A DNA stretch of 64,000 nucleotides, taken from Nonomuraea sp. NEAU-A123. Lineage in GTDB: Bacteria; Actinomycetota; Actinomycetes; Streptosporangiales; Streptosporangiaceae. Below are positions 7,653 to 53,109 of the stretch, piece after piece. Below the pieces are notes generated by a model. It ran no database searches. It was given only the letters and a program-made list of their open reading frames with translations, and had not been told where the DNA came from. The first letter of the stretch is position 1; every line of letters begins with the position of its first letter. Location of the stretch: NCBI RefSeq assembly GCF_018603905.1, contig NZ_JAHFZZ010000003.1, positions 434,001 to 498,000 on the forward strand, written 5' to 3'. Position numbers and translations under genes: made by a program.

Positions 7653-8234
7653 TCAGGCTACGGCTGTACTGACTCGGCCGCCCTTCGTTGCGGCCACCGC
7701 TGCCATGAACGCCGCGGCGGCTTCCTCATCGGAGACGGGTGGCGTCTCGACGACGTCGACGCCGCCGGGCGGCCTGTCGAGCTTCGCCTCGAATATGCGC
7801 CGCTCCCCATCGCCGGCGCCCTCGGCGAGGTAGGCGTGCACGACGTTGCACAGGTACGCCGGCCGGTCGAGCATCGCGACCAGGTCGAGCCCGCGTAGCG
7901 CCCATCGCCCCTCGAGCTCTGACCAAGCCGCGGCCACGTGGCCGTACAACTTCTGCGCGACCCACCAGCGGCGGCCGGTAGCCGCCTCGACGAGCTGCTC
8001 GGCCACCCGGTCGACGTCGTCGAGCTCGAGAGGATCGTCGTCGTCGTCGAGCCGGTCGTCGAGCACGTCGAGGTCCTCGGGGTCGACCAGCGCGTACAAC
8101 AACTCGAGCTGCCAGTCGACCAGCGTGAGCACGTCGAGCAGCACCGACCACGAGCCGACGAGCTCGTACACCTCGCCGTCGAGCTCGAACGAGCGGGGCG
8201 GCCCGTCCAGCGACGGCCGCCACTGCTCGGCCAC
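7653..8234 (-). CDS. Tail assembly chaperone, second ORF (T-like)
   Basis: 193 residues, GTG start directly abutting the TAG stop of the preceding chaperone ORF and in the same frame. Acidic cluster LDDRLDDDDDPLELDDVDRV near residues 58-77, then a Trp-rich helical region. Position immediately before the tape measure is that of the T half of the G/GT chaperone pair of long-tailed phages. In most phages the GT fusion arises by -1 frameshifting; here a fusion would instead need read-through of one amber codon. No clear ribosome binding site precedes the GTG, so coupling or read-through is likely. Confidence 0.75.
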   Translation of the reverse strand: MAEQWRPSLDGPPRSFELDGEVYELVGSWSVLLDVLTLVDWQLELLYALVDPEDLDVLDDRLDDDDDPLELDDVDRVAEQLVEAATGRRWWVAQKLYGHVAAAWSELEGRWALRGLDLVAMLDRPAYLCNVVHAYLAEGAGDGERRIFEAKLDRPPGGVDVVETPPVSDEEAAAAFMAAVAATKGGRVSTAVA

Positions 8235-14398: not shown

Positions 14399-15166
14399 TT
14401 ACGCCGCGAAGAGGCTGAGTTGATCGACCTCGGCCGCTGGCCGCGCCGAGGTGAACCGGCCGCGGTGCCGCCCGGGCCGGTCCGGGTTGAACCCGTTGAC
14501 TTCCTCGAACGCGGGCTCGTCGACGCCGAACAGCGCGTCGACGTCGGCCGCGGCGAGGATCCGGTCGCGCCAACGCATGATCCGCTCGACGTTCTTCGGG
14601 GCAACGGTGCACATGGTTCCGTCGACCGAGTCGACGCCCATCCGGGCGGCGATCAGGTAGCGGCCCCACGTGTTCACGCGGCCCATGTGGGTCCACTTGC
14701 CGAGGCTGTTAGCGATGTCGACGAGCTCGGCGACCGCGGCCGACTCTTTCCAGTCGTCGCCGCCCCCGATGAAAAGCGCGTCAATGTCGTTCCACAAGTC
14801 CCACGCGTCGTACTCGATGCCGGGCTGAGCGACGAACGCGACACTGAACCCGCGCTCGCGGATCCGGGGAAGCATGTCCCAGCTCGCGTTCTTGGTGGCC
14901 CAGTGGTTCCCGACGACGTCGGGAGCGACGACGAACGCGAACTCGTCGGCGAGGCCCGCGGCGGCGAGCTCGTCGAGGCCCGCGAGGTATGCCTCGTCGC
15001 CCCGATAGTGCCCACCGAAAACGCCGTTGTCGCGGCACTTGACGACGCCCGGGATGGGGCGGTTCCCCTGTGCCGGGGTGGTGATCATGCCTAGGTCGCC
15101 GGCGAGCATCGCATCGACGATGCGCTCGTCACCACACGGCGGCGTCATGTAGAGGGGCGCGTGCAT
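14399..15166 (-). CDS. tRNA-guanine transglycosylase / DpdA-like protein
   Basis: 255 residues from ATG 15166 (GAGG 9 nt upstream). Segments FVVAPDVVGN (about residues 81-90) and HMGRVNTWGRYLIAARMGVDSVDGT (about 165-190) resemble the substrate-pocket Asp and nucleophile Asp regions of the TGT TIM barrel. Residues DALFIGGGDDWK fit the central GG motif. The usual TGT zinc site is absent, as in phage DpdA-type proteins. Such enzymes exchange guanine for a 7-deazaguanine in DNA or tRNA. No preQ0 pathway genes are in view, so the base would have to come from the host. The family call is from remembered motifs, not a search. Confidence 0.6.
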   Translation of the reverse strand: MHAPLYMTPPCGDERIVDAMLAGDLGMITTPAQGNRPIPGVVKCRDNGVFGGHYRGDEAYLAGLDELAAAGLADEFAFVVAPDVVGNHWATKNASWDMLPRIRERGFSVAFVAQPGIEYDAWDLWNDIDALFIGGGDDWKESAAVAELVDIANSLGKWTHMGRVNTWGRYLIAARMGVDSVDGTMCTVAPKNVERIMRWRDRILAAADVDALFGVDEPAFEEVNGFNPDRPGRHRGRFTSARPAAEVDQLSLFAA

Positions 15167-15167
15167 C

Positions 15168-15302
15168 TCAGACCTCGCCCAGCTCGAACAGGCCCTCGGC
15201 ACCGGTGGCCGCGTGCTCGTCGAACAGGGTCTCGGCGACCGGCTTGAACGTGGGGTCGAACGCGGTCGGTCCGAGGTCGAGCCAGGTCTGAGCGTGGTTC
15301 AC
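15168..15302 (-). CDS. 44-residue protein, first gene after early promoter 1
   Basis: GTG 15302 with AAGGGAG upstream; 44 codons to TGA at 15170, one base before the spacer to the TGT-like gene. Sequence starts MNHAQTWLDLGPTAFDPTF and is acidic and aromatic. High third-position GC and a good ribosome site support it. It is the first reading frame after promoter/operator element 1. No function recognised. Confidence 0.6.
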   Translation of the reverse strand: MNHAQTWLDLGPTAFDPTFKPVAETLFDEHAATGAEGLFELGEV

Positions 15303-15328
15303 GGGGGACTCCCTTGCGGTCTTGGCGG

Positions 15329-15382
15329 TGCAAGACAGACCGTACACCTATGTTAATAGACATTGCAAGGGAGTCCGTACAT
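15329..15382 (-). promoter_or_regulatory. Early promoter/operator element 1
   Basis: Minus strand: TTGCAA (15368-15363), 18-nt spacer, TACGGT (15344-15339). Two direct copies of TGTACGGWCTSYCTTGCA lie in it, one at the -35 side and one covering the -10. The same composite occurs at 35231, 36678 and 50073. It should drive the 44-residue gene and the TGT-like gene and be controlled by a protein binding the direct repeats, most simply the phage repressor. Confidence 0.7.
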
Positions 15383-15613
15383 CTAAGCCGTGGGCGCCCG
15401 TTCTCTCGAGGGTCTCGGCACGTGCCGGATCCGACCGCGCACCTCAGCCAGCGACCCCCGCCCGTACGCGAGGTGCTGCGCCACCTCCGGCCGGCAGTTG
15501 GGGCACGGCTCGACATACTCGCGGCCGTTGCCGTCGACGAGGTCGAGCCATCCGGCCACGCATCCGATGTGCAGGCAAGTGCACACGGATGGCCACGGGC
15601 AAGCGAGCCTCAT
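15383..15613 (-). CDS. Small zinc-ribbon-like protein
   Basis: 76 residues, ATG 15613 with AGGTGGTGAAGC upstream. Cysteines in CTCLHIGC (residues 11-18) and EPCPNC (36-41) form two C-x2/x4-C pairs suitable for one zinc ion. Basic C-terminus. Similar small Cys-ribbon proteins are common in actinomycete phages and integrative elements; role unknown, possibly nucleic-acid binding. Ends immediately before promoter element 1. Confidence 0.65.
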   Translation of the reverse strand: MRLACPWPSVCTCLHIGCVAGWLDLVDGNGREYVEPCPNCRPEVAQHLAYGRGSLAEVRGRIRHVPRPSRERAPTA

Positions 15614-15963
15614 GCTTCACCACCTAGTTGGGCGCACTACGTAACGCGCCCGTATAGGTCGATGATAAATGATCTCTCGAATTGAGGTACGGCGACGCTG
15701 TTGCGCAGCTACCGTTGGTGCTGGCAGTCACGCGCGAACCGGGTGGAACTTCCCAGGCTTTAGCCCGGCGTACCAAACACCTGATCGGCGCCGTTTCAAG
15801 GGCCGTGTGTAAGACCTGCGATAGACGGCGATCGGGCAGAGGGAAAACTCGATGTCTGGGGACTGCCCGCCGGGCGCCTCGTGGATCTGACGGGGCGCCC
15901 GACGCTTGTCCGGCGCACTGCTCAACGCTCATGGGTAGCTGGCAGTGCGACACGGCGACATAG
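15614..15963. other. 350-bp stretch without a convincing gene
   Basis: A 65-codon minus-strand frame (15925-15728, TTG start, no ribosome site) has a plausible C-terminus (SGVWYAGLKPGKF) but no other support. Overlapping plus-strand frames look like shadows. No tRNA or strong repeat was found. Confidence 0.5.
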
Positions 15964-15997
15964 CAGCGCCCCGCAGGTCGAGACCTGCGGGGCGCTG
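15964..15997 (-). terminator. Strong hairpin terminator after methyltransferase gene
   Basis: CAGCGCCCCGCAGGTC and its exact complement are separated by two bases, giving a 16-bp GC-rich stem starting 8 nt after the methyltransferase stop. It lacks a T-run, as is frequent in actinobacteria. It closes the peptide-methyltransferase cassette. Confidence 0.75.
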
Positions 15998-16004
15998 TTG
16001 GAGT

Positions 16005-17153
16005 TCAGGCCTGATACGGCCCTCGACGAGGGCCGATGGTGGCCTGCGGAGCATCGAGCCAGAGCTGTTGCCCCTCGGGAGTGACGGTCATGCCGAACCG
16101 ATCGAGGCCCGGCTCGCCACAGCCCACCCACTCGAAGTACGCGCCTGTCACCTCCTCCCAGAGGTGGCGGTCGCCGAGCTCGTACACCCATGGCTCGTCG
16201 TCAGGCTCGTAAAGGGCTGCGCCCCATTGGCCGGGGTCGCCGGGATCAACGAGGAACAGCCGTTGCTCGTCGTCGAGGCGCATGCGTAGGCCGGTGAGGG
16301 CCGACATCATCAGGCCGGCGCCGGCCGGCGCGTAGGCGATCGTGCGGGGGTCTACCGCGGTGTTGAACCGTCGACCGCTTCCGTCGTCGGGATTGCCCGG
16401 TGTAGCGCCCTGAGAACGCATCATCATGTACGAGGTGTAGCCCGGGAACCGCCCGACGGCGCTGCCGTCGGGCATGGCGACGAGCCGTAGCGACTGGTCA
16501 GTGTCGAACCCGGGCGAGTACGGCGTGACGATGACCGCGCCCGGGCGGCATTGCTCGATCCACGCGTACGGAACGGTGTGGACTGCGCACGTGACGTGCA
16601 CGCGGTCGTACGGCGCTCTCTCTGGCCAGCCATCCGCCCCGTCACCGACGATCAGGTGCGGGTGTACCTCGGCTGCGGCCAGCGTCTTTGCCGCCTGCTC
16701 GGCGAGCGCCGGGTCGACCTCGATGGACGTCACCCGGGAAGCGTCGCCGATCAGGTGGGACAACAGGGCGGCTGTCCACCCGGTACCGGTGCCCACCTCG
16801 AGTACGCGGTGCCCCGGCTCGGGGTCGAGCTGCGTGAGCAGGTCGACCACTGTGCCCGGGGCCGAGTTCGACGAGGTGTAGCGGCCTTCCACAGTGCGGA
16901 TGTCCGTCGCGCCTTTGTCGAGCTGCGTCACGATGGCGGCCGTCCCGTACACGGCCGCCCACCACGCCTCGGGGTCGCAACCCCGGTCGATCAGCTCGGG
17001 GCCGGCGTCGGTCAGAGCAACTGCCACCGAGGGCACGAACATGTGCCTTGGCACCGCGTGTAGCGCGTTGGTGATCGTGCCGCTTATCGGGGCGCGAGTC
17101 CCACTGATCGCGGCGATCATGCCGTCGACGCTAGCGTCGAGGTCGGGCGTCAC
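16005..17153 (-). CDS. PCMT-family methyltransferase (RiPP-associated type)
   Basis: 382 residues, GTG start overlapping the stop of the 40-residue peptide gene (GTGA). Residues 90-130 hold YTSSNSAPGTVVDLL and VLEVGTGTGWTAALL, the substrate loop and SAM-binding motif I of protein-L-isoaspartate methyltransferases. It has a C-terminal extension of about 150 residues ending near VTPEGQQLWLDAP, similar to the extension of PCMT homologues in lasso peptide, graspetide, lanthipeptide and imiditide clusters. Predicted to methylate an Asp of the upstream peptide and so form aspartimide; the methylation domain is clear, the partner is inferred from overlap. Own promoter and terminator flank the pair. 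Confidence 0.85.
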   Translation of the reverse strand: MTPDLDASVDGMIAAISGTRAPISGTITNALHAVPRHMFVPSVAVALTDAGPELIDRGCDPEAWWAAVYGTAAIVTQLDKGATDIRTVEGRYTSSNSAPGTVVDLLTQLDPEPGHRVLEVGTGTGWTAALLSHLIGDASRVTSIEVDPALAEQAAKTLAAAEVHPHLIVGDGADGWPERAPYDRVHVTCAVHTVPYAWIEQCRPGAVIVTPYSPGFDTDQSLRLVAMPDGSAVGRFPGYTSYMMMRSQGATPGNPDDGSGRRFNTAVDPRTIAYAPAGAGLMMSALTGLRMRLDDEQRLFLVDPGDPGQWGAALYEPDDEPWVYELGDRHLWEEVTGAYFEWVGCGEPGLDRFGMTVTPEGQQLWLDAPQATIGPRRGPYQA

Positions 17154-17272
17154 TTTCCCTTTCCGCCCCCCTCGTGCTTGCCACCGCTGCCGTCCCCATC
17201 GCCCGTGTTCTTGTCATGCTTCGGGAGCTCGAGCGGTTTCGACTTGGGCTTTTCGCCCTCGTGCTTGCCCAT
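17150..17272 (-). CDS. 40-residue Lys/Gly/Asp-rich peptide, candidate RiPP (imiditide-type) precursor
   Basis: ATG 17272 with AGGAAGG 9 nt upstream; TGA overlaps the methyltransferase GTG. The N-terminal half is lysine-rich (MGKHEGEKPKSKPLELPKHD), then NTGDGDGSGG with two Asp-Gly steps, then GKHEGGGKGK. Asp-Gly is the most aspartimide-prone dipeptide and positive charge is a feature of known imiditide precursors, which bind their PCMT by charge. No Cys, no signal peptide. The frame upstream of this ATG is not coding. A precursor role is inference from gene overlap and composition. Confidence 0.65.
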   Translation of the reverse strand: MGKHEGEKPKSKPLELPKHDKNTGDGDGSGGKHEGGGKGK

Positions 17273-17313
17273 GCGGTGAGCCCTTCCTCGCCTTGAAACG
17301 AACGGTCTCCGCG

Positions 17314-17342
17314 ACCATATGACTACCGATCGTGACCGACAA
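17314..17342 (-). promoter_or_regulatory. Promoter of peptide-methyltransferase cassette
   Basis: Minus strand TTGTCG (17342-17337), exactly 17 nt, TATGGT (17319-17314), 42 nt before the peptide start. With the terminator at 15964-15997 this makes the pair an independently transcribed cassette inside the virion operon, the usual layout of a moron. Confidence 0.6.
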
Positions 17343-17391
17343 GAGGCCAATCGGTTAGGTGGGGTAGGCCATCGAGCGATGCGATACCGCG

Positions 17392-17916
17392 TTACGGGCA
17401 ACAGGTGTACGCCTGCACGGTCACGCGCATGACCCCGCCGGCGCACCCGCCGTTCGGGGGGATCGGGCTCCACTCGCCAGGCACGAGGATCCGACCGCCG
17501 TCCTGGGCGCGGAAGCAGCACACCGCGGCGCGCATCGCGGCGGCGTCGTCGACCTGTACCTCGACGTCACGGGTCGTGGCCTCGCACGAGGGCGGGTCGC
17601 CGGCGTCGTCGAGCGTGGCCACGCACCGGTAAGCGCCGAGCTCGAGCTCGACGGCGTAGGCGGCCGACTGCCCGCACCGAACCAGCTCGTTGGTACGTGC
17701 GGGGAATTTCGACGACGGAAAGATCGCGACGACGCGTACCCATGCCTGCCCCGAGGCGCCGCTTGGGCACTCACAGCAGAAGTCGGCCGGCGGGGGGCCG
17801 ACCGCGAGGCAGCAGTGACAGGGCGAACCGCCCGTGCTGCCCTCGAGAGCCGAGCAGAAGCAGGCGAGCAGCGCGTTCGCGAGCCCGAGCGCCATCTTGT
17901 CGAGGTTCACGGCCAT
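17392..17916 (-). CDS. Cys-rich head-tail region protein
   Basis: 174 residues from ATG 17916; overlaps the end of the connector gene by 10 nt. Many cysteines (CFCSALEG, CHCCLAV, FCCECPSG, VCCFRAQ) in a 175-residue protein; the region 60-170 looks beta-rich (WVRVVAIFPSS, YRCVATLDDAGD). Position after the connector suggests a neck or tail-terminator role. Not a recognised family. Confidence 0.6.
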   Translation of the reverse strand: MAVNLDKMALGLANALLACFCSALEGSTGGSPCHCCLAVGPPPADFCCECPSGASGQAWVRVVAIFPSSKFPARTNELVRCGQSAAYAVELELGAYRCVATLDDAGDPPSCEATTRDVEVQVDDAAAMRAAVCCFRAQDGGRILVPGEWSPIPPNGGCAGGVMRVTVQAYTCCP

Positions 17917-18695
17917 GTCTGCACCCGTGGCGGCCGGCGGTCCGGTGAGTAGACGCGAGCGCCCTGTCGCAGCCCGTTCGGGTTCACGGCCGAGAGCCAC
18001 GCGTCGACCTCGTACAGCCCCGTACGGCCCTTGTCGAGCATGTCCATCGGGTCGAGCAGCGCCAGCGTCACGCCCTCGCGCGTGATCGAGGTCACGCGCT
18101 TGGGTAGCCGGCAAGTCTGCCCCATGCACGCCTTGAGCAGCTCACAGGCATACACGCCGGCGGCGAGTTGGCCGGCGCGCGGTACGGGGATGCCCTGACG
18201 GTAGGTGACCGCGAACGTGCCGACCTCGGACGGTGGCAGGGTGAGGTCTTGGCAGGTAGGCCAGCACGCCGCGGTGTCGCGCCGGACTAGTTTCCGGTGG
18301 TCGTACACCAAGTAGTCCGCCGCGCTCACGATGTCGCCGTCGAGTCGGACCTCGACCACGCTGTCGACGGGCCCGGGGAGCACGATCTCGCACATCGGGC
18401 CGCAAGAGCAGTCGGTGAGGCACTCGCCACACCCGTTGATCCACGAACCGTCGACCATGTGAGGCCAGTACGAGCCCCCGCCATACAACGGAGTGAGCCC
18501 CACCATCGGCGTGCACGGAGCTCGACACGGCCGGACGGTGATCGTGCAAAGTCCAAACTGTCGGCCGCTGAGATTCCACATGATCTCGGTCGCGACGTCA
18601 GTCGCGAGCTGCCGTAGTTCGGCCGCCGCGTTCTCCCAGCTCGAACAGCACGTCATGTCGAGGTTCCACTCGCACGCCGTCGTGCGGATCGCCAC
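17907..18695 (-). CDS. Head-tail connector-like protein
   Basis: 262 residues. Pattern VVEVRLDGDIVSAADYLVYDHRKLVR and FAVTYRQGIPVPRAGQLAAGVYACELLKACMG is typical of actinophage head-tail connector (gp6/adaptor) proteins, with helical N-terminus (ENAAAELRQLATDVATEIMWNLSGRQFG). Cys-rich N-terminal half. Lies after the major tail gene, an unusual order, since connectors normally precede it. Confidence 0.65.
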   Translation of the reverse strand: MAIRTTACEWNLDMTCCSSWENAAAELRQLATDVATEIMWNLSGRQFGLCTITVRPCRAPCTPMVGLTPLYGGGSYWPHMVDGSWINGCGECLTDCSCGPMCEIVLPGPVDSVVEVRLDGDIVSAADYLVYDHRKLVRRDTAACWPTCQDLTLPPSEVGTFAVTYRQGIPVPRAGQLAAGVYACELLKACMGQTCRLPKRVTSITREGVTLALLDPMDMLDKGRTGLYEVDAWLSAVNPNGLRQGARVYSPDRRPPRVQTWP

Positions 18696-52752: not shown

Positions 52753-53109
52753 TTCGCGCAGGCGTATGTGATCGCCCACGAGTACGGCCACCACACCCAG
52801 GACCTGCTGGGCGCGCTCTCCGAGGGCAACTCGGTGGCCACGGAGCTGCAAGCCGACTGCTACGCGGGGGTGTGGGCCAAGCACGCGGTCGACACCGGCT
52901 TCTACGAAAAGCCGTTCACCACCTCGGAGTTCGCCGAGGCGCTCGACGCGGCGGCGGCGGTCGGCGACGACCGGATCCAGCAACGCACTCAGGGCAGGAT
53001 CGACCCGGAGTCGTTCACGCACGGCAGCTCGGAGCAACGCGTCAACGCGCTGAATCGCGGTTACAAGACCGGCGACCCAGCCAAATGTGCGCAATCTGAT
53101 CTTCTATAA
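52744..53109 (+). pseudogene. C-terminal fragment of neutral zinc metallopeptidase (YpfJ-like)
   Basis: An open frame after TAG 52741 encodes [23 protein letters not shown] (split here as HEYGHH, the HExxH zinc motif), then [21 protein letters not shown], with the third ligand Glu in LQADC-type context, to stop 53107-53109. The N-terminal roughly half of the protein, with its membrane anchor, is missing because the element integrated here. Excision would restore the gene. Without a start codon at the right place it is probably not translated. Confidence 0.85.

Follow-up and report, generated by a model that had tools for sequence, protein, structure and literature searches.

A putative imiditide cassette in a Nonomuraea prophage and its relatives in other actinobacterial viruses

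The two-gene pair and its described relatives

Imiditides (type I pamtides) are ribosomally synthesized and post-translationally modified peptides (RiPPs) whose described clusters consist of a precursor gene and a gene of a peptide L-aspartyl O-methyltransferase (PAMT). In Streptomyces sparsogenes, as described in the available text of PMC10787088, the two-gene cluster SpaA/SpaM encodes a Gly/Pro/Asp-rich precursor of ~45 aa and a PAMT acting on the linear peptide. For NmaA/NmaM of Nonomuraea maritima, an Asp-His in the precursor and a DEDGD acidic loop in the enzyme, needed there for modification, have been published in sections 10 and 11 of a review (PMC13001092), section 11 of which also defines the WXXXGXP motif. 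Here we describe a similar pair in a 64,000-nt stretch of Nonomuraea sp. NEAU-A123 (contig NZ_JAHFZZ010000003.1, positions 434,001–498,000; the window, in whose positions all coordinates are given), located within a prophage and probably representing an accessory cargo of a temperate phage of a Nonomuraea-like host.

The peptide gene (ATG at 17272, 40 codons, stop at 17150) and the gene of the PCMT homologue (GTG at 17153, stop at 16005, 382 aa) are both located on the minus strand and share the bases GTGA of the peptide stop and the enzyme start, i.e., they overlap by 4 nt. These gene coordinates bear out the initial annotation of the window, which noted a Lys/Gly-rich peptide with two Asp-Gly sites overlapping a PCMT homologue. 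The peptide, MGKHEGEKPKSKPLELPKHDKNTGDGDGSGGKHEGGGKGK, contains 27.5% Gly, 22.5% Lys, 7.5% Pro and 7.5% Asp, with a Lys-rich C-terminus and with Asp residues at D20, D25 (D25-G26) and D27 (D27-G28), and it was identical in 38 of 40 residues to the precursor of N. guangzhouensis (locus L028). A pair with the same precursor as in L028 was also present in another genome of the genus. Judging from the Nei-Gojobori ratios of nonsynonymous to synonymous substitution rates (dN/dS) in ten pairs formed by the prophage copy, L028, L108, L029 and L030, both genes are under purifying selection: the values were 0.17–0.50 for the peptide, which are rough with ~40 codons, and 0.16–0.32 for the enzyme, with 0.17 (based on seven differences only) and 0.16, respectively, between the prophage copy and L028.

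The prophage PAMT matched the PCMT model PF01135 (E 7e-32, residues 92–230) and phrog_13505, the 'methyltransferase' family of such proteins in PHROGs (E 4e-98). In its AlphaFold model (mean pLDDT 93.4, pTM 0.91) the C-terminal extension, which the initial annotation had pointed out, is predicted to form an additional domain beginning near residue 261, with its elements in the published order. The best Foldseek match of the model was the T. maritima PIMT 1DL5 (E 1.5e-21), and the VIA-align alignment with 1DL5 spanned the C-terminal domain as well (307 residues, model residues 8–368, Z 27.4, rmsd 6.4). The majority of the rows in the VIA-align listing were limited to the methyltransferase domain, and the listing neither shows nor excludes other folds for the C-terminal domain. 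No full-length structural match was found in BFVD, where the best one comprised 210 columns with a 219-aa protein. The search for the C-terminal motif of RiPP-type PCMT homologues located WXXXGXP at residues 342–348; the motif was found in 103 of 146 extracted proteins, with duplicates and partial ones counted.

Relatives were searched in one genome per species across 84,980 species, resulting in 287 finds, of which the best 80 were kept. The tree included 88 of the 146 extracted proteins, after duplicates, short rows and approximately half of the chromosomal rows had been dropped. It was computed by a quick method without a mixture model, with long-branch warnings concerning the PIMT-like rows, and we assigned the labels used in it (PIMT, graspetide neighbour, phage contig) ourselves. 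The prophage PAMT was placed in a clade of six, inside a clade of 33 that includes the N. maritima enzyme (L055), both with a Shimodaira-Hasegawa-like approximate likelihood ratio (SH-aLRT) of 100. Four PIMT-like rows, which are only presumed to be of the repair type and comprise the two best PCMT-model matches of the own genome and two proteins from viral contigs, split off at SH-aLRT 99. The enzyme stands apart from the PIMT-like rows and possesses the extension.

Precursors were searched in 113 loci, using gene calls from our own script and a composition-based criterion, by which the composition figures are biased; those of the prophage copy, L010, L011, L012 and L055 were preset, and the near-duplicates L023, L024, L025, L027, L109, L112, L114 and L115 as well as loci above L137 (except L143) were excluded. 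A precursor-type peptide preceded the enzyme in 84 loci, including the five preset ones, and none was accepted in 29. In the column of Asp25, 79 of the 84 precursors had Asp, which in the presumed NmaA is that of the Asp-His; near the N-terminus, G was conserved in 75, K in 60 and H in 77 of them. Since Asp is kept so widely in this column, Asp25 is the predicted modified residue, and the alignment points to it as the modification site. The own genome also harbored three chromosomal paralogues, L010 and L011 with 60% identity and L012 with 47%, each of which overlaps a precursor of ~40–50 aa, and further PAMTs, among which L013 and L014 were located beside ATP-grasp-like genes and L015 and L017 had upstream open reading frames (ORFs) resembling radical-SAM proteins (all names given by eye). 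By the tree, the C-terminal domain, the WXXXGXP motif and the precursor type, the prophage pair is classified as a type I pamtide/imiditide pair, which agrees with the imiditide-like RiPP pair of the initial annotation.

Locus L055 was taken as NmaA/NmaM because it comes from the same species, its enzyme contains DEDGD and its 46-aa precursor has an Asp-His at the column of Asp25. It has in common with the prophage pair the presence of two genes only, a linear charged precursor, a PAMT with the C-terminal domain and WXXXGXP, and the conserved Asp in the same column, with the enzymes being 55% identical. In contrast, the prophage copy is phage-borne, its Asp is followed by Gly instead of His, and its enzyme has LDDEQR in place of DEDGD. 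SpaA/SpaM, likened here by its description only, resembles the prophage pair in the two-gene cluster, the precursor type and the linear substrate, but no phage context is reported for it in the available text of PMC10787088.

Assignments to other classes were rejected. The methyltransferases of graspetides (TIGR04188) and graspimiditides share the enzyme superfamily and the C-terminal domain, but no ATP-grasp gene was seen beside the prophage cassette, whose scanned neighbors are phage genes, and its PAMT scored 272 bits with TIGR04188 (residues 26–363; cut-off 380), compared to 419 bits for L013. The model of FxLD lanthipeptide methyltransferases (TIGR04364) gave 132 bits against 320. A cysimiditide (type II pamtide) was dismissed since the peptide has no Cys and hence no CXXCXGXG, and a repair PIMT since the PIMT-like rows fall outside the clade of the prophage PAMT. 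As to a defence system, PADLOC gave merely a methyltransferase-domain match to mads_2 (E 5e-15). The genes overlap as a pair, and no primary enzyme of another RiPP class was found among the scanned neighbors.

Promoter and chromosomal relatives

The putative own promoter of the pair (TTGTCG-17-TATGGT, 17314–17342), read by the initial annotation, was not called by a generic sigma-70 scan (8 of 12 consensus bases) but proved to be conserved in relatives. In six aligned upstream regions (prophage copy, L028–L031 and L108) the TTG of the -35 element and the -10 region were conserved, with the remainder being more divergent. The pattern TTG-N19 to N21-TA-N3-T occurred in 30 of the 83 family upstream regions (mean of 1.06 and maximum of 4 in 100 rounds of shuffling) and began 62–71 nt ahead of the start codon in 27 of the 30 sites. 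The motif TTGYY-N11 or N12-GTAGYCRTAYNRT, refined by eye from this 30-site set, had three exact sites in the 12.7-Mb genome, namely at the prophage cassette, L010 and L011. Allowing one mismatch added a single site before an unrelated gene, but the backward control at one mismatch contained 1 site for the first spacing and 6 for the second, and the 18-spacer motif was not above the control (3 vs 6), so that only exact matches are informative. Across 54 genomes from the genus, 13 exact sites of the N11 form were present in 11 genomes (control 1), and nine of the 13 immediately preceded PAMT genes; because the prophage site, L169, L171 and L174 had served to derive the motif, the score counted independently is 5 of 9. 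The four sites away from PAMT genes (L166, L172, L173, L175) included two before very similar 348-aa substrate-binding-lipoprotein-like proteins, one before an nSTAND-like protein (names by eye) and one before nothing clear. The phage copy thus seems to have kept a promoter that is reserved in the main for imiditide loci.

The DNA similarity to N. guangzhouensis L028 (87%) extended from 17350 to 16017, i.e., from the promoter to shortly before the stop, and ended there. The closest relatives of the pair are chromosomal copies in other Nonomuraea, and none of the four closest (L028–L031) had neighbors resembling the phage genes around the prophage cassette. Their neighborhoods differed mutually, except for a NUDIX-like gene (name by eye; 77% over 150 nt) upstream in both L028, where it is beside the cassette, and L029, where it is ~7 kb off, so that these two contexts are not wholly different. 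In L031 (N. wenchangensis) the reading frame of the precursor gene (7870–8004) does not match that of its GKH start, due to either decay or a sequencing error. Four more loci (L165, L168, L170, L176) contained a PAMT and the family promoter with no recognised precursor in between.

Prophage setting and occurrence in other viruses

PHROG scans of 30 genes of the window identified minor tail, tape measure, neck, head-tail adaptor, major tail, major head, portal, terminase and serine integrase genes, all on the cassette strand, and the matches of the neighboring genes place the cassette within the virion operon, well inside the prophage, where the initial annotation had put it. A full-length gene of a neutral zinc metallopeptidase (PF04228) was located outside the window (L159:10806–11717), and its 3' part recurs as a second copy at about 52754–53109, with 60% identity over 115 aa. 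At the border of the similarity the two copies have a 13-bp word in common, and a longer common word of 16 bp lies further inside the gene. From these copies the prophage ends can be inferred, giving an element of ~61.4 kb with an approximate crossover; the prophage seems to sit in the metallopeptidase gene and to supply a replacement 3' end, by which the host gene stays full length.

The head-tail adaptor was present in eight of 297 family genomes (the own one included), and the PAMT was absent from all six related stretches examined. Both flanks were kept in two of them, where the interval from the phrog_810 gene to the neck gene contained an ACT-GNAT gene, among others, in L154 and a lipoprotein-like gene in L155; the other four were partial, remnant-like or more distant. 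By this comparison the cassette occupies a position of the virion operon whose contents vary. The other contents of this position in related prophages, the conserved own promoter and the chromosomal DNA similarity limited to the cassette are all in line with the prophage moron of the initial annotation. The features of the locus are summarized in Table 1. The ~660-bp gap following the inverted repeat (15303–15963) had no gene called by our script, and a 109-aa minus-strand ORF in it had no Pfam match; a promoter for late transcription or the remains of a gene may be located there. Rfam gave nothing at gathering thresholds in 14900–17600.

Table 1. Features of the cassette and its flanks (positions in the window)
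Feature	Position	Strand	Basis
Family promoter TTGTCG-17-TATGGT (extended TTGYY-N11-GTAGYCRTAYNRT)	17314..17342	-	Conserved upstream of L028, L029, L030, L031, L108
Ribosome-binding site GAGGAAGG before precursor	17282..17289	-	Read from sequence
Putative imiditide (type I pamtide) precursor, 40 aa	17150..17272	-	Translation, precursor alignment, dN/dS
Asp25 codon, predicted modification site (Asp-Gly)	17198..17200	-	Inference from alignment column
PAMT, PCMT homologue, 382 aa	16005..17153	-	PF01135, TIGR04188, phrog_13505, tree, model
RiPP-type C-terminal domain of PAMT, residues ~262–382	16005..16370	-	1DL5 alignment to model residue 368
WXXXGXP motif (WVGCGEP, residues 342–348)	16110..16130	-	Motif search
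16-bp inverted repeat after PAMT stop, possible terminator	15964..15997	-	Fold, z-score
Upstream phage genes: phrog_810 protein, head-tail adaptor (phrog_783)	17392..18395	-	PHROGs
Downstream phage genes: 44-aa ORF (own gene-calling script only), phrog_15826 protein	14399..15302	-	PHROGs

The survey of phages for the pair, an approach suggested by the initial annotation, revealed it in L108, in five Austintatiousvirus phages and in further viral contigs. L108, from a 19.7-kb viral contig and thus from the second, different phage contig in the clade of the prophage PAMT, encodes a 76% identical PAMT and a precursor behind the family promoter; the genes that come next are those of terminase, portal, protease and major head protein. 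In the phage collection, 12 of 50,697 records matched the PAMT; the eight whose match covered 80% or more of the protein belonged to five Austintatiousvirus phages infecting S. venezuelae (PapayaSalad, Alderaan, Austintatious, Bioscum and Ididsumtinwong). Their phage-borne PAMT (phrog_13505) is likewise preceded by a small peptide gene (MSGKH...) just upstream; however, it is only ~40% identical to the prophage enzyme, the peptide is Gly/Ser-rich, and the pair lies between lysis genes and regulators, outside the virion operon, with no family promoter found. The records annotate the two genes merely as a methyltransferase and a hypothetical protein. An integrase was annotated in the examined regions of PapayaSalad, Ididsumtinwong and Bioscum, and Alderaan is reported to be without one in the available text of its genome paper (PMC7650747). 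Among 13 records (eight phages) sharing at least 80% of the tail query, eight had the pair, and the five without it, from SV1, Picard and Mojorita (Picardvirus), contained regulators and other genes in that region; within these 13 records the presence of the pair follows the genus.

A scan of viral contigs with the prophage PAMT alone detected no relative, and relatives were found only by using alignments. The broad alignment recovered 53 viral contigs. A precursor-like partner was present in 21, three of which are copies or near copies from Austintatiousvirus; the remaining 32 included 17 with an upstream ATP-grasp signature and 3 with a CXXCXGXG peptide. Among the contigs with a partner, L108, L116, L117, L120 and L123 had structural, packaging or lysis genes close to the pair, as confirmed by PHROGs. 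L118 and L110 had an integrase but no structural, packaging or lysis gene among the scanned ORFs, L111 had a DNA methyltransferase only, and L109 represents the same locus as the Spongiactinospora chromosome stretch L040; for these reasons the four are not firm as phage carriers. L113 was located among tail and lysis genes, with no precursor found. For the 'phage contig' label, which includes contigs possibly with host flank, the starred branches of the tree require five or more changes. Taken together, the compared genomes indicate that phage carriage of such pairs is recurrent among actinophages. Plasmid records also contained such genes: a Spongiactinospora contig labelled as plasmid carried imiditide-like pairs (L043, L067), and PAMT matches, examined for the enzyme only, were present in 478 of 72,556 plasmid records, with 85 of the matches covering 80% or more of the PAMT.

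Alternative explanations and possible role

By analogy with the family, the prophage PAMT would recognise the linear charged precursor with the help of its C-terminal domain and methylate the side chain of Asp25 with S-adenosylmethionine; the ester would then collapse to an aspartimide ring with a loss of 18 Da, which might later be hydrolyzed to isoAsp or Asp. Because the cassette keeps the promoter of the chromosomal imiditide loci of the host, it might also be expressed in the lysogen like those loci, the phage thereby adding a further imiditide to the host set.

Several observations weigh against an imiditide cassette functioning in this way. The WXXXGXP motif is absent from the own-genome paralogue L012 and from the Austintatiousvirus enzymes, and is therefore not a strict marker, and L012 also has no exact site of the refined promoter motif. 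Of the two elements of a charge-based recognition, the basic precursor C-terminus is present as the Lys-rich end of the peptide, and the acidic loop of NmaM is present in the prophage PAMT in shortened form. The score with the graspetide model remains below the cut-off, yet this fits a non-graspetide enzyme. With Asp-Gly sites adjacent to each other, Asp27 is also possible as the modified residue. Finally, the 16-bp terminator of the initial annotation stood only in part: the inverted repeat is present, and the 69-nt stretch with it folds strongly (-37.4 kcal/mol, z -4.7), but it lacks the T run of a textbook terminator, and a terminator scan called none.

A chromosomal imiditide cassette inserted by chance into a resident prophage, with no role for the phage, is unlikely, though it deserves serious consideration, given that the closest relatives L028 and L031 are chromosomal, away from genes like the phage genes around the prophage cassette, and that the three paralogues of the own genome are chromosomal too; it leaves aside that L108, a different phage contig of the same clade, has its own copy with the same promoter and that five Streptomyces phages of one genus retain the pair beside lysis genes. 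We consider it very improbable that the pair is a decaying, silent relic. The broken precursor frame in L031 and the precursor-less promoter loci L165, L168, L170 and L176 demonstrate that decay or loss happens in the family, but in the prophage copy both frames are intact, the low dN/dS to L028 holds for peptide and enzyme, and the promoter match is exact. Least probable of all, with hardly any weight, is an enzyme that repairs proteins or methylates virion proteins, with the small ORF as a mere coupling leader: it would account for a PCMT superfamily member placed among virion genes, but not for a precursor conserved over the family with its Asp column and the dN/dS of 0.17–0.50, nor for the PIMT-like rows falling outside and the occurrence of the same pair outside phages. 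The cargo of a temperate phage thus remains the preferred explanation. Phages tend to retain cargo that pays. A more general proposal, that imiditides are a recurrent currency between actinobacteria and temperate phages, taken up with a dedicated promoter and used in the lysogen, e.g., for excluding competing phages or biasing the competition between lysogens and non-lysogens, is speculative and in our opinion doubtful. A possible lead to the function is offered by certain actinobacterial lanthipeptides that defend against phages, as described in the available text of PMC12360287.

Neither the chemistry nor the family is new; the novelty appears to lie in the carriage by phages, in the recurrence of this carriage and in the family promoter. 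The words phage, prophage and virus are absent from the main texts of the pamtide paper (PMC10787088) and the 2026 review (PMC13001092), the word methyltransferase does not occur in the available text of the Alderaan genome paper (PMC7650747), and no paper on phage-borne imiditides was found in the open-licence literature. The available part of the 2026 review (PMC13001092) names the linking of aspartimide peptides to biological function as the bigger challenge ahead. With the pair-carrying S. venezuelae phages, a laboratory host becomes available for these puzzling peptides, together with phenotypes that can be sought, and for one of the five, Alderaan, infection RNA-seq has been published (GSE213718; PMC10117723, as far as its available text describes). 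The conserved promoter offers a handle on the regulation of imiditides, and similar pairs in actinobacterial viruses may help to reveal the role of these peptides.
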